Positions 2,721 to 37,879 of a stretch of DNA of 64,000 bases are shown piece after piece. The stretch is from Synechococcus sp. M44_DOE_062. GTDB taxonomy: Bacteria > Cyanobacteriota > Cyanobacteriia > Thermostichales > Thermostichaceae. How positions within the stretch are numbered: the stretch's first letter is position 1; every line of letters begins with the position of its first letter. The stretch spans positions 1 to 64,000 of the forward strand of contig DVDX01000018.1 of NCBI GenBank assembly GCA_015295985.1, in the 5' to 3' direction. Below the pieces are notes generated by a model. That model saw only the letters and a list, made by a program, of their open reading frames with translations. It did not search any database and was not told the origin of the DNA. Position numbers and translations under genes: made by a program.

Positions 2721-4550
2721 TCAATACCACTGCCAGAACAGCTTGCCCATTTGGGTAATCTGACGGCCCTGATCCGGATAGGGAGCCTCAGAAACGGTGA
2801 GGGCTGTGGTGGCGAAGGCAAAGCGCGTGGATGACCAGCGGGATCCCTTTAGTTTGGGCAGCTCCCTTTCCAACAAGAACCCCAGGGATCCATATCCATA
2901 GCCCAGATTGCGGTGGGGCAGGGGAGCCACCAACTTGCGCCAGGCGCGGTCGGCACCCAAGGGGGGATCCGTAAGGGCCGCCTCCAGAGCCGCCAGAGAA
3001 GAAGCCAGGTAGGAATAGCCTTTGCGGTCGGCGTGATACACCTGCGCCGGCAACGGGATCCCCGGCGGCGACTGGGGAAGAGCCTCTGCCACCTGCAATG
3101 ACGGGGATCCTCCTTTCCCACTGACTTCCAGTGGCTCACCCGCCAACACAGGGATCTCCGGTCGATGGGTGGAGCGGTAAGGACTCCGTCCCGCTGTCGC
3201 GACCGGCTGGGGTTCTGACGGCAAGGATCCCGTCTCCCCTGCCGTTGGTTGGATCCATGCGGTGGCGGTGCCGCGCTTCGTTGCCAGAGAGACCACCTGC
3301 CAGCCTTGGGCGCGTACCCGCTCATCCAGATCAAAATATTGCTCCGCAACGCTAACGCGAAAAGGACTCCGTCCCGCTGTCGCGACCGGCTCATCCGGCA
3401 TCTTGCCGACCCACAGCCAGGCTGGATCCCCGTCGCCGGGCAAAAGGGCAAAGGCAAACTCTCCCCCTTCCGGCAACAGGTGCTGCCAGTCCAGCGCCAC
3501 CTGAGATTGCAAGCGCTGCCGCCACTGGCCAGGATCCACCCGCAATCCCAGCAGATTCAGGGGCTGGATCTGCCCCAGGCTTTGCCAAACCGAGGCCAGA
3601 TGGTTTCCAGAAACCAGCGCCAAGGTCTCATCCGGCAGATGCTGAAGGATCTGCGGGCGAAAGGCTTCTGCCATCGGCAAGGAGAACCCGGCAGGCGCAT
3701 GCCAGAGGGCCGCACTTTCGGCCACCAAGCCCTGGAAGTTCACTCCCAACCCCAGCCCTACCGCCTGCAACGTCAGCCCGTCCGGAGAAACCGCCTCTGG
3801 ATTTTGCCAGAAGGCCCAACCCACATGTGCCTCCCGCAGCGGCTGGATCACCTGCTGAAACAGAGGCTGAGCCACCAGAGACAACTGCGGCAATTGCCAA
3901 GCATCGATGGCGGCGCGAATGGCGGCAGGCTGCTCCGCCAACAACACGTATTGCTCGCCGAAAACGGCTGCCGAGAACCCCTGCAGATCCGGAAAAGCGC
4001 TCCGCGCCGCTGACGCGACCGGGCCGCTGGACACCACCTGAATGCCCTTGTAAGTGTCCACCTGTACCGGCCTCCCAGCCAAGCTCTGCCGTTCCCACAA
4101 TAGGTTCAGCTCAAACTGAGAGAGCGCCGCATCCCGTGTTTCCAGGGCAACCAAGGTGCCCCACTCCGGCAAACTGGCTAAGAGGGTGCTCTTTCCCAGC
4201 CAGGGCCGCACCTCCCGCTCAAAATCAAGGGATCCCCCGGCCAGCACGGATCCCAGCCAGCCTGGGCCGTCAGGGGAGAAAAACTTTCGCCATTGCTGAC
4301 GGGTAGCGCGTCGCTGGGGGGCAGGGGTTGCCGCCTGCCAAAACGCTTGCACCTCGTCAAGGGGAACGGCCAACACCAGCAGCGCTTGCGCCGAGCGGGG
4401 GGCCAAGCCCACAATGGGTGGCAGCTCCGGGTGGGCCAGCAACAAAGCCACCGGACTGCGGGTGAGCAGCCATACAACAACCCACACCATCAGGGCGGCC
4501 AGAAGACCCAACCCGATTAGGATCCCGCGCAAGAGTTGCCGTCGTTCCAT
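2721..4550 (-). CDS. DUF3352 domain protein, membrane anchored, with repeat insertions
   Basis: A 609-residue protein with one N-terminal transmembrane segment (LIGLGLLAALMVWVVVWLL) and a long extracytoplasmic part resembling DUF3352, a cyanobacterial family of unknown function. Oddly, three sites in the sequence are encoded by copies of the dispersed hairpin repeat: PVASAARSA (about residue 180), a double site PVATAGRSPFRVSVAEQYF near residue 395, and PVATAGRSPYR near residue 450. All four copies lie in the same orientation and reading frame, so the ORF stays open while Pro/Arg/Ser-rich segments are added. A GAGAG site precedes the ATG. It starts 18 bases after a small upstream ORF, so the two probably share a transcript. 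Confidence 0.8.
   Translation of the reverse strand: MERRQLLRGILIGLGLLAALMVWVVVWLLTRSPVALLLAHPELPPIVGLAPRSAQALLVLAVPLDEVQAFWQAATPAPQRRATRQQWRKFFSPDGPGWLGSVLAGGSLDFEREVRPWLGKSTLLASLPEWGTLVALETRDAALSQFELNLLWERQSLAGRPVQVDTYKGIQVVSSGPVASAARSAFPDLQGFSAAVFGEQYVLLAEQPAAIRAAIDAWQLPQLSLVAQPLFQQVIQPLREAHVGWAFWQNPEAVSPDGLTLQAVGLGLGVNFQGLVAESAALWHAPAGFSLPMAEAFRPQILQHLPDETLALVSGNHLASVWQSLGQIQPLNLLGLRVDPGQWRQRLQSQVALDWQHLLPEGGEFAFALLPGDGDPAWLWVGKMPDEPVATAGRSPFRVSVAEQYFDLDERVRAQGWQVVSLATKRGTATAWIQPTAGETGSLPSEPQPVATAGRSPYRSTHRPEIPVLAGEPLEVSGKGGSPSLQVAEALPQSPPGIPLPAQVYHADRKGYSYLASSLAALEAALTDPPLGADRAWRKLVAPLPHRNLGYGYGSLGFLLERELPKLKGSRWSSTRFAFATTALTVSEAPYPDQGRQITQMGKLFWQWY
3181..3206 (+). repeat. Dispersed hairpin repeat, copy 1 (in DUF3352 gene)
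   Basis: GGAC-TCC-GTCC hairpin followed by the tail CGCTGTCGCGACCGG. It is read on the minus strand as PVATAGRSP inside the DUF3352 protein. Confidence 0.85.
3339..3389 (+). repeat. Dispersed hairpin repeat, copies 2 and 3 in tandem
   Basis: Two units sit head to tail: TTGC-TCC-GCAA with tail CGCTAACGCGA, then GGAC-TCC-GTCC with tail CGCTGTCGCGACCGG. The different arms pair equally well. Both are in frame in the DUF3352 gene. Confidence 0.85.
3997..4022 (+). repeat. Dispersed hairpin repeat, copy 4 (in DUF3352 gene)
   Basis: GCGC-TCC-GCGC hairpin with tail CGCTGACGCGACCGG. It encodes PVASAARSA in the DUF3352 protein. Confidence 0.85.
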
Positions 4551-4568
4551 ATCTCATCTCTCATCTCT

Positions 4569-4865
4569 TCACAACCGTTCTTCCGGCCTATTCTGCAACA
4601 TCCAGGCCAGGTTGTTGCCTGTATCCGCCCCATTAGGCCAGCGTCGGTGGTGGACGGAAGAGGCCAACGTCCATTCAACCAAAACCTCTGGCGAAACGCA
4701 GCGCAGCCACAGTAGTCCTTCTTCTGGAAGGCCCTCATCACCAGCGACCCCCTCAGTCCGCAGCCAAACCGGTGAATTGGCAGGGGCAAGCACTGCCCAG
4801 TGGGGGTACTCTAGAAGGTGTTCTAAGGACTCCGTCCCGCTACTGCGATGAGTAAGTCCGTGCAA
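4569..4865 (-). CDS. Uncharacterised small protein, start disturbed by repeats
   Basis: I do not recognise this protein with certainty. The reading frame from about 4826 down to 4569 looks coding: a soluble, Trp-rich stretch (LLEYPHWAVLAPANSPVWLR, then LVEWTLASSVHHRRWP) with good composition, and its stop lies 18 bases before the DUF3352 ATG on the same strand. The 5' end is unclear because a repeat copy (4827-4852) supplies the residues before LEHLLEYP. The nearest in-frame start is a TTG at 4865, and an ATG at 4931 would lie inside the opposite-strand phosphatase gene. Length from TTG is 98 residues. A repeat insertion may have replaced the original start. Confidence 0.45.
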   Translation of the reverse strand: MHGLTHRSSGTESLEHLLEYPHWAVLAPANSPVWLRTEGVAGDEGLPEEGLLWLRCVSPEVLVEWTLASSVHHRRWPNGADTGNNLAWMLQNRPEERL

Positions 4866-4901
4866 GCAATGGCAAGGACTCCGTCCCGCTACCGCGACCA
4901 G
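4827..4901 (+). repeat. Dispersed hairpin repeats, copies 5 and 6
   Basis: Two GGAC-TCC-GTCC units (4827-4852 and 4876-4901) separated by 23 bases. The first has a degenerate tail (CGCTACTGCGATGAG). They form the 5' ends of the two divergent genes here, and the plus-strand ATG at 4848 lies in the tail of the first unit. Confidence 0.85.
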
Positions 4902-6287
4902 CCTGCCCTGCGCATCTTGATCGTGCGCCATGGTGAGAGCACCTTTAACCTGGAAAATCGTATTCAAGGCCGCTCCGATCTCTCTCGACTCACCCCCACC
5001 GGAGAAGTGCAGGCGCAGCGTGTAGCCGAGGCCCTAGCTGGGATCCCGCTGGATTGCGCCTACTGCAGCCCCCTGTCTCGCGCCCTCGATACAGCTCGCA
5101 TCATTTTAAAAGACCGAGAAGGGATCCCTCTGCACATCACCGATCAACTGCGGGAGATCGACCTGACGGCTTGGGAAGGGCTGACCTTTGCCGAGGTGAA
5201 GGAGAAATACCCCGAAGATTATCATCTGTGGCGGCACCATCCCGACGACCTGGAGCTGGAGGGCCGCTTTCCGGTGCGAAATCTCTGGCAGCAGGCGCAG
5301 GGGTTTTGGGAAATGCTGGCTTTCCATCTGCAATCGGCTTCGGGCCCCTGGAACCATGGAGCGGATCCCTCCCAGAGACAGACCCTCAATATCCTCATCG
5401 TGGGCCACAGTGGCATCAATCGCGCCCTGGTCAGCACCGCCATAGCGCTCCGCGCCGCTAACGCGACCGGACTGGGGCCACACCACTATCACTGTCTTGG
5501 GCAGGATAACTGCGCCATCAGCGTTCTCAATTTTCCCGAGGGCCTGCAGGGGCCCCCACAACTGGAATCTCTAAACATCACCGCTCACCTCGGCCAAGCC
5601 CTACCCAAGCGCAAGCAGGGGATGCGCATCTTGCTAGTGCGGCATGGGGAAACCCAATGGAACCGGGAGCGCCGTTTTCAGGGGCAGCGGGATATCCCCC
5701 TCAATGCCACCGGGGAGGAACAGGCAGCCAAGGTGGCAGAATGTTTGGCCACTCAACCCCTGCAACTGGCCTTCTCCAGCCCCCTAAAGCGCTCCTGGGC
5801 CACAGCCGATGCCATCTGCAGCAACCACAGCAACCTCATTTTGCGCCCAATGCTCGACTTGCAAGAGATCTGCCACGGCGACTGGGAGGGCAAGCTGCAA
5901 AGCGAAGTCGAAGCCGAATACCCCGGCGAGCTGGAGCGCTGGCAACGGGATCCCGCCAGTGTGCAGATGCCCAATGGGGAAAACCTTCACCAGGTGTGGG
6001 AGCGCACTCGCTCGGCCTGGCAGGAGGTTTTGGCGACCACCGCAGCCCAGTTTCCAACACAGGGCACAGCGGTTGTTGTTGCCCACGATGCCATCAACAA
6101 AGCCATCATCTGTCAGTTATTCAACCTTTCCCCCCAAGCCTTTTGGATCTTCAAGCAGGGGAATGGCGCCATTACGGTGATTGACTATCCAGAAGGCAAG
6201 GAGGGTGCCCCGGTTTTGAAGGTGTTGAACCTCACCACCCATCTGTCCGGTCAGATCCTGGACTGCACCACCGCCGGAGCTCTGTAA
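4848..6287 (+). CDS. Tandem histidine phosphatase (phosphoglycerate mutase family)
   Basis: The 479-residue protein contains two complete histidine-phosphatase domains. The first has RILIVRHGESTFN near residue 24 and a second catalytic His in IVGHSGINR near residue 190; the second has RILLVRHGETQWN near residue 260 and VVAHDAINK near residue 410. Two-domain PGM-like proteins occur in cyanobacteria; substrates are undefined, so the name phosphoglycerate mutase should not be taken literally. Shortly after the second His of domain 1, the segment ALRAANATG is encoded by a repeat copy and looks like an insertion relative to what I expect for the family. The first residues (MSKSVQAMARTPSRYRD) also derive from repeats, so ATG 4869 is an alternative start. 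The next gene begins two bases after the stop. Confidence 0.85.
   Translation: MSKSVQAMARTPSRYRDQPALRILIVRHGESTFNLENRIQGRSDLSRLTPTGEVQAQRVAEALAGIPLDCAYCSPLSRALDTARIILKDREGIPLHITDQLREIDLTAWEGLTFAEVKEKYPEDYHLWRHHPDDLELEGRFPVRNLWQQAQGFWEMLAFHLQSASGPWNHGADPSQRQTLNILIVGHSGINRALVSTAIALRAANATGLGPHHYHCLGQDNCAISVLNFPEGLQGPPQLESLNITAHLGQALPKRKQGMRILLVRHGETQWNRERRFQGQRDIPLNATGEEQAAKVAECLATQPLQLAFSSPLKRSWATADAICSNHSNLILRPMLDLQEICHGDWEGKLQSEVEAEYPGELERWQRDPASVQMPNGENLHQVWERTRSAWQEVLATTAAQFPTQGTAVVVAHDAINKAIICQLFNLSPQAFWIFKQGNGAITVIDYPEGKEGAPVLKVLNLTTHLSGQILDCTTAGAL
5445..5470 (+). repeat. Dispersed hairpin repeat, copy 7 (in phosphatase gene)
   Basis: GCGC-TCC-GCGC hairpin with tail CGCTAACGCGACCGG. It is translated as ALRAANATG in the first phosphatase domain. 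Confidence 0.85.
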
Positions 6288-6289
6288 AG

Positions 6290-7636
6290 ATGATCCGCGA
6301 GCTGGCAGGACAAAATGTGTGTCTCCAGAGAGTGCGCCTGTTGGATCCCTTGCGCCAGCGGGATGAAGTGACCGATGTGTGGTTGCAGGAGGGTCGCTTG
6401 CAGGCCACTGAACCAGCAGGGATCCCTGCCGATGTTCCCATCATCGATGGCTCGGGTTGGGTGGTGGGGCCGGGTTTGCTGGATCTGTATGCCTACAGCG
6501 ACGAGAGGGTTGGCAACGATCTGGCCCACAGCCGGGAGACCCTAACCTCTAAGGCCTCTGGCCCGCTGGCGCGACTGGCTGCAGCAGCTCTGGCGGGAGG
6601 CTTTACCCAGGTGGGGCTTCTGCCCACCCCCCTTCCCGGAACTGGCTTATTTCCGGTGCTGGATCACCCGGAGCACCTGAACCGCTACCCCCGCCAACTG
6701 GGGGATCCCCGCTGGCTGCCCTGGGCTGCCCTGAGCGTGGGTGGCCAAGGAGAAACCCCAACCTTCTGGGGAGAACTGGCGCAAGCGGGAGCAGTTGGCT
6801 TTGCAGAGGTTCGGCCACTGCGCTCCTTGGCTTTGGTGCGGCGGGCTCTGGAGTATCTGCGGCTGGAGAACAAGCCCCTACTGCTCTGGGCCTGGGATCC
6901 CACCTTGGCCGGGCAAGGCAGCCTTTATGAAGGGATCTGGGCACTGCGCCTGGGGCTGAAAGGGATCCCTACCAGTGCCGAAACTGCTGCTCTGGCCCGT
7001 CTCTTGGAGGTCATCAGGAGCGTTCCTTCCCCCCCACCCGTGCACATCATGCGCCTGAGCCAAGCCCGCAGCCTGGAGCTGATCCAACAGGCCCAAGCAG
7101 AAGGACTGCCGGTTACCGCCAGCACCACTTGGATGCACCTGATCTTGTCCGAAGAGGCCATCCTTGAGCACCACTACGATCCCCATCTTCGTCTCCTGCC
7201 CCCTCTTCCCAGGGCCAGCGACCGGGAGGCTCTGATTGCCGGGATCCGTTCCGGCAGCTTGGGGATCGCTACGGATCACCACCCCTACACCTACGAAGAG
7301 AAAACCCTGCCCTTTGCCGATGCTCCGCCGGGGGCGATGGGCCTGGAGCTGGCTCTGCCGCTGCTGTGGCACCATTTGGTAGAAACGGGATCCCTGACGG
7401 CGCTGCAACTGTGGTCTGCCCTCAGCCTGTACCCAGCCCGCTGCCTAAACCTAGATCCGCCCACCCTCACCCCCCACAGCGACTGGGTGCTGTTTGATCC
7501 CACCCACCCCTGGACGGTTTCTGCGGCCACCCTCCACTCCCGATCCCAAGCGACTCCCTGGCTGGAGAAAACCCTGTGCGGCAAAGTGCTGCACACCCAT
7601 GCTGAGGAGATCCCCTCCGGCAGCTCCACCCCTTGA
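6290..7636 (+). CDS. Dihydroorotase-like protein lacking the metal HxH motif
   Basis: A 448-residue amidohydrolase-fold protein. Where active dihydroorotases have the metal-binding DxHxH just after the first beta strand, this sequence reads GPGLLDLYAYSDE, so both histidines are absent. A later ATDHHPYTYEEK segment and the terminal barrel features (SALSLYPARCLNL) are kept. This is the pattern of non-catalytic DHOase-like proteins, which in some bacteria serve as partners of aspartate transcarbamoylase; cyanobacteria carry such a paralogue. Whether it has any enzymatic role is unknown. It begins two bases after the phosphatase stop, so the genes are translationally linked. A repeat copy lies 41 bases after the stop. 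Confidence 0.75.
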   Translation: MIRELAGQNVCLQRVRLLDPLRQRDEVTDVWLQEGRLQATEPAGIPADVPIIDGSGWVVGPGLLDLYAYSDERVGNDLAHSRETLTSKASGPLARLAAAALAGGFTQVGLLPTPLPGTGLFPVLDHPEHLNRYPRQLGDPRWLPWAALSVGGQGETPTFWGELAQAGAVGFAEVRPLRSLALVRRALEYLRLENKPLLLWAWDPTLAGQGSLYEGIWALRLGLKGIPTSAETAALARLLEVIRSVPSPPPVHIMRLSQARSLELIQQAQAEGLPVTASTTWMHLILSEEAILEHHYDPHLRLLPPLPRASDREALIAGIRSGSLGIATDHHPYTYEEKTLPFADAPPGAMGLELALPLLWHHLVETGSLTALQLWSALSLYPARCLNLDPPTLTPHSDWVLFDPTHPWTVSAATLHSRSQATPWLEKTLCGKVLHTHAEEIPSGSSTP

Positions 7637-7677
7637 TCCTGAAGAAGGCCGACAAGACCTGTCCGGCGGATGTTTAG

Positions 7678-7703
7678 GGACTCCGTCCCGCTAGCGCGAA
7701 CAG
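7678..7703 (+). repeat. Dispersed hairpin repeat, copy 8 (intergenic)
   Basis: GGAC-TCC-GTCC with tail CGCTAGCGCGAACAG, between the convergent dihydroorotase-like and ileS genes. Confidence 0.8.
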
Positions 7704-7785
7704 AGTCCGCTTGGAGAAAGAGCCAATTCAAAAAATAATGATCAAGACCGAGATCCGCTCGCCTCAGTGGGACGGAATCCTTAAC

Positions 7786-37658: not shown

Positions 37659-37879
37659 TGACATACTCCCCGTCATAAAGGGCGAGGATTCCGGTTCCTG
37701 GTTCTGCTACGGCACTGCCTCTGTCGGGTTGCCCTCCCATTCGCGCCAGCGGGACGGAGTCCTTGAAGTCTGCACTCTTTATTGCTACGCAACGCGGCGC
37801 GACCGCTTTAGCGGCGCGGTTCCCGTCAGGGTGCCGTAGGCATAGCGCTTTGCGTCAGCATGAGTGCGGGAGTATGTCA
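37659..37879. mobile_element. MITE-like element with 12-bp terminal inverted repeats
   Basis: TGACATACTCCC (37659-37670) and its exact reverse complement GGGAGTATGTCA (37868-37879) bound 221 bases without a transposase gene. Inside are a minus-strand GGAC-type repeat (37741-37762), a TTGC-TAC-GCAA repeat (37782-37807) and a TGCC-GTA-GGCA hairpin near 37838. The same 12-mer occurs once more at 27291. No clear target duplication is visible. It is probably a non-autonomous derivative of a cyanobacterial IS. Confidence 0.65.
37741..37807. repeat. Dispersed hairpin repeats, copies 14 and 15, within the MITE
   Basis: GGAC-TCC-GTCC unit on minus (37741-37762) and TTGC-TAC-GCAA unit on plus (37782-37807), facing each other about 20 bases apart. 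Confidence 0.75.

Follow-up and report, generated by a model that had tools for sequence, protein, structure and literature searches.

The DUF3352 gene of Synechococcus sp. M44_DOE_062 encodes short peptides that are very probably insertions of a 24-nt mobile repeat, and this hairpin repeat has spread through the genome of the strain and that of a sister species (genome G004). The gene lies on the minus strand of the window (the whole stretch of DNA analysed, 64,000 nt), encodes a protein of 609 aa with an N-terminal membrane helix, and holds four units of a single repeat family at three sites, the units at 3337 and 3362 being counted as one site since they adjoin. The unit coordinates confirm the four copies at three sites reported in the preliminary description, as well as their freedom from stop codons. 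The same description had given all copies one orientation and one frame; the orientation is indeed common to the four units (plus strand, against the gene), and the frame to three of them (VATAGRSP twice and VASAARSA), FRVSVAEQ being read from another frame of the element. The gene, its units and further units in the window are as follows.

2721..4550, minus strand: DUF3352 host gene, matching Pfam PF11832 (E 1e-80), with a dN/dS of 0.19-0.21 across congeners
3995..4018, plus strand: site 1, one 24-nt unit of the GCGC/GCGC stem subtype, reading (GP)VASAARSA; private to this genome and empty in five congeners
3362..3385, plus strand: site 2, first unit, GGAC/GTCC stem, reading VATAGRSP; common to this genome and G004
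3337..3360, plus strand: site 2, second unit, TTGC/GCAA stem, reading FRVSVAEQ in a different element frame; missing in G004, which is exactly 24 nt shorter there
3179..3202, plus strand: site 3, one unit, GGAC/GTCC stem, reading VATAGRSP(YR); common to this genome and G004, the other congeners being empty
4825..4848, plus strand: further unit adjoining the DUF3352 gene
4874..4897, plus strand: unit at the 5' end of a histidine-phosphatase ORF
5443..5466, plus strand: in-frame unit (IALRAANAT) in the histidine-phosphatase ORF 4848-6287, with an exact 24-nt empty site in G004
6551..6574, plus strand: unit in ORF 6290-7636, empty in G004
7676..7699, plus strand: further unit
7759..7782, minus strand: further unit, on the opposite strand
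37741..37764, minus strand: further strict unit

The origin of the peptides was scrutinized at the codon level by aligning the DUF3352 gene with those of five congeners (62-87% identical, tblastn) and three outgroups, which for this gene alone also served to polarize the differences as gains rather than losses. Site 1 is filled in the M44_DOE_062 genome only and empty in all five congeners, while sites 2 and 3 are filled in this genome and in G004 only, the latter having one unit fewer at site 2. G004 possesses in addition two private insertions at other places in the gene, which has thus kept units at five sites across two lineages. The alignment bears out the proposal that the peptides derive from the repeat and are absent from homologues, and no homologue among the five congeners and three outgroups has the insert residues without the repeat DNA, the observation that had been named as decisive against it. 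The dN/dS of the pair formed with G004 is 0.19, compared with 0.20-0.21 for other congener pairs; with values near 0.2, like those of the other pairs, the gene appears to be working with its inserts under normal purifying selection. Alignment with the G004 and G001 stretches ends right after the gene in both cases (window ~4561), close to the units at 4825 and 4874.

The inserts had been expected to fall in surface loops. The conservation percentiles of their flanks are low at two of the three sites (14 and 5) and intermediate at the remaining one (53), and reach 10 and 32 at the two private sites of G004, so that a lean towards variable segments is suggestive rather than strong. A single-sequence fold of the 609-aa protein (mean pLDDT 38) was too poor for loop placement, and a search for a relative of the protein in the PDB found none.

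The repeat unit has the consensus 5'-(A/T/G)A-GGAC-TCC-GTCC-CGC-TNNC-GCG-A-3' (24 nt) and is comprised of two stems: stem 1, of 4 bp, with the layout NNNN-TMC-N'N'N'N', and stem 2, CGC-TNNC-GCG. Among 371 units chosen blind to the stem, stem 1 was fully paired in 295, compared with 119 in shuffles, and in a stricter set restricted to units having neither of the common arms 70 of 98 were fully paired. Changes on both sides of stem 1 occupied 50 cells against 14.8 after shuffling, in a 40-sequence alignment picked for its many stem types. Stem 1 is therefore kept by compensatory changes, with strong covariation. Stem 2 is nearly invariant, and is for that reason little informative; a subtype, TATGCCTACGGCACCCTGACGGGA, present at window 37821-37844 and at L054:7162-7185, has stem 2 changed on both sides (CCC/GGG), which suggests that this stem may also be maintained as a pair.

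The matches to this family are not due to chance, since the genome contains 111 places with at most three mismatches from AAGGACTCCGTCCCGCTGTCGCGACC and 170 places with at most one mismatch from the core pattern GGACTCCGTCCCGCTNNCGCGA, while both reversed patterns gave 0. The core pattern at the same threshold occurs 204 times in G004, 17 to 60 times in four other congeners, and almost nowhere else in the class. Within 419 kb of the genome 225 units were found, against five in reversed sequence; this density is not a genome average, because the 419 kb consist of the window and of stretches chosen for repeat richness. The stretches of G004 were picked largely from forward copies, so that they carry no weight on strand bias against GC skew. 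Most sites (160 of 188) are occupied by one unit alone and lie at unrelated places, and tandem pairs on the same strand mostly have a spacing of 24 nt. Unrelated cyanobacterial families, and a Gloeomargaritales genome, also yielded units with the layout described above; covariance-model searches of genomes were used for presence only. No exact copies were found in viral contigs, and a search of genome contigs for related loci returned no relatives.

Neighbouring units within ~1 kb share strand and subtype above chance. Runs of units on one strand extend over several kb, beyond tandems, at window 3179-7676 and at L054:5138-8588, where the stem subtype is shared too. An array of at least 11 units, mostly in 24-nt steps, is located at G005:C2:181188-181468. 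Several contig ends of the M44_DOE_062 draft are made of units, some of them tandem (G000:C25:1-48, G000:C12:9-56 and G000:C79:30-55), so the repeat probably breaks the draft assembly and long arrays are probably undercounted. A different short sequence, GGGATCCC, occurs 92 times in the window (1-64000; reversed control 0), and the HIP1 sequence GCGATCGC only twice; such a replacement of HIP1 has been described for Synechococcus JA-3-3Ab and JA-2-3B (PMC4390886).

DUF3352 is one of several genes that have gathered more than one copy, and three sites within one 1.8-kb gene are only mildly unusual at the measured repeat density. An alpha-2-macroglobulin ORF of 1677 aa (L054:5746-10776, minus strand) carries more, with seven units at seven in-frame sites; a CoA-ligase/ATP-grasp protein carries four units, homoserine dehydrogenase three and GAPDH one, and NFACT is also among the hosts. 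As these include cytosolic enzymes, the earlier idea that a long extracytoplasmic protein accounts for the copy number in DUF3352 is not needed. At 37 of the 91 sites that could be compared with G004 (~40%), a coding substitution pattern was accompanied by a frame that stays open across the unit. In coding use the unit is read in every one of its six frames; the avoidance of stops in frame F1 is circular and constitutes no evidence, the coding test itself requiring an open frame. The length of 24 nt appears to be a property of the element rather than the outcome of selection by the genes, since 18 of 40 empty sites with few mismatches had no coding signature and showed the same unit-length gap. 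As 24 nt equal eight codons and most of the six frames are free of stops, insertions inside genes stay in frame by virtue of the fixed length of the element and not of any property of DUF3352.

The repeat was compared with known families of small elements. Small dispersed repeats (SDR) of cyanobacteria, attributed to Elhai et al. (2008, Genome Res 18:1484), are reportedly REP-like, untagged and presumed mobile. The repeat described here is likewise dispersed and tandem (225 copies in 419 kb, spacing 24), and its clean filled and empty sites provide evidence of mobility. Of two papers that cite Elhai 2008, PMC2884548 and PMC3733652, the first presents SDR as repeats of ~20 nt, dispersed and also tandem. 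SDR are thus the nearest kind, matched by description and not by consensus sequence; the features measured here that can be set beside them are the in-frame load within genes and a TYRG target with base exchange (see below). With this nearest kind, and with units of the same layout in unrelated families and in Gloeomargaritales, any novelty is limited to three features: the load in genes, the target rule together with its base exchange, and a clustering by strand among neighbours.

The preliminary description had invoked the Rickettsia palindromic elements (RPE), which measure ~150 bp and comprise several families with a conserved peptide in each (PMC10969869). The functional part of this analogy stands, the repeat being inserted in frame into unrelated protein genes that are kept; membership does not, given 24 nt against ~150 bp, and the repeat is cyanobacterial and used in all six frames, unlike the RPE ORF with its conserved peptide. 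With REP and REPIN-RAYT systems it shares the short hairpin, the high copy number and the partly tandem arrangement; however, AA and CGC border its stem, which has no GTAG or CGTC tag at its foot (REP tag tetranucleotides: PMC3733652), no intact RAYT was found in the genome, and the repeat is frequent in genes, with a coding signature at 37 of 91 comparable sites, which may depart from the mainly extragenic location of REP/REPIN. MITEs, with terminal inverted repeats, target duplication and a size of 70-300 bp, differ from a unit whose insertion adds exactly 24 nt without duplication. The ISSoc2-derived MITEs of thermophilic Synechococcus, as summarized in PMC10969869 from Nelson et al. 2012, are IS-derived and located in intergenic regions or genes of unknown function; they probably come from the same kind of host and are set apart from the repeat by description alone, as being IS-derived.

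At the level of the junctions, the difference was exactly 24 nt at 25 single-copy units with both flanks present in the other genome, and 39 clean comparisons of filled and empty sites displayed a net gain of 24 nt with no target duplication. Immediately 3' of the insertion point, the 39 empty sites read T in 30 (position 0, p 9e-14), C in 25, G or A in 33, and G in 32 (position +3, p 6e-12). Of the 30 sites with this target T, 25 carry A or C instead when filled, and a T at the second target position is replaced by C in five of nine. Over all strict copies the same 3' rule holds (G at +3 in 83 of 91 and 128 of 145), only one of 236 is preceded by G, and the 3' side is preserved (ACGG, ACAG) in the rare copies from other cyanobacterial families. 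The unit thus sits directly 5' of T-Y-R-G (best TCGG or TCAG), with the T usually exchanged for A or C.

From the junctions we infer, as a possible rather than a probable step, priming by a single-stranded, hairpin-forming copy: its 3' end (...GCGA-M-C-R-G) would pair with the target YRG and be extended or joined there, its own base replacing the target T. Such priming would account for the target lying on the 3' side, the base exchange, the lack of duplication and the self-targeting, and tandems might grow because the 5' AAGG of an existing unit mimics the target. Selection, for its part, would remove only damaging positions and stop frames.

Host-driven copying, in which short single-stranded pieces of the repeat would pair through microhomology at the replication fork and become incorporated without the help of a dedicated enzyme, is a serious possibility, though we would put it below an even chance. 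It accommodates both the CRG microhomology on the 3' side with replaced bases and the likeness of units within ~1 kb in strand and subtype, as if they had been copied nearby; template switching at the fork should nevertheless vary in length, whereas the inserted unit is always the same and complete, at 24 nt, and its 5' end is fixed.

Transposases of the Y1 class act on short hairpins, with a strand-specific, one-sided target and no target duplication. The repeat has these same properties, and a REP-type element moved as single-stranded hairpins by a RAYT or an IS200/IS605 Y1 transposase (for the class, see PMC3116915 and PMC6006769) would account for them, yet we consider it unlikely. No intact enzyme of this type was found in the genome, each of its four Y1_Tnp matches being interrupted or partial, and across the genus the number of repeats does not track that of Y1 matches (19 matches and 60 strict copies in G001, two and 204 in G004). 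Moreover, the stem foot bears no GTAG or CGTC tag, ~40% of the comparable sites fall within genes, and the target base is exchanged, unlike in precise Y1 insertion.

Retention of the units for a function in the host gene, whether as peptide, as DNA site or as RNA hairpin, to which the stem covariation and the shared frame of three DUF3352 units might point, is very improbable: sister species differ in the units they possess, every one of the six frames is used, the flanks lean to variable segments, and covariation could also reflect correction templated by the hairpin, or a requirement of mobility. Simple tandem-repeat slippage, as in a minisatellite, would fit the arrays with 24-nt steps and the length difference of 24 nt at DUF3352 site 2 and may lie behind some array growth, and is rejected as a general cause, with next to no likelihood, by the solitary units at 160 of 188 sites, in unrelated places, and by clean empty sites.

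Beyond the insertion of a mobile repeat we tentatively put forward, as a rather doubtful extension, an unrecognised mechanism of movement for this 24-nt hairpin DNA: its 3' end would pick TYRG by pairing and overwrite the first target base, and the repeat would go on supplying proteins with insertions of eight residues. If this is right, a unit of eight codons would make insertion into genes tolerable and drive changes in protein length across the genus, and the TCRG target with base exchange and no duplication would provide a testable signature for the movement of very small repeats.
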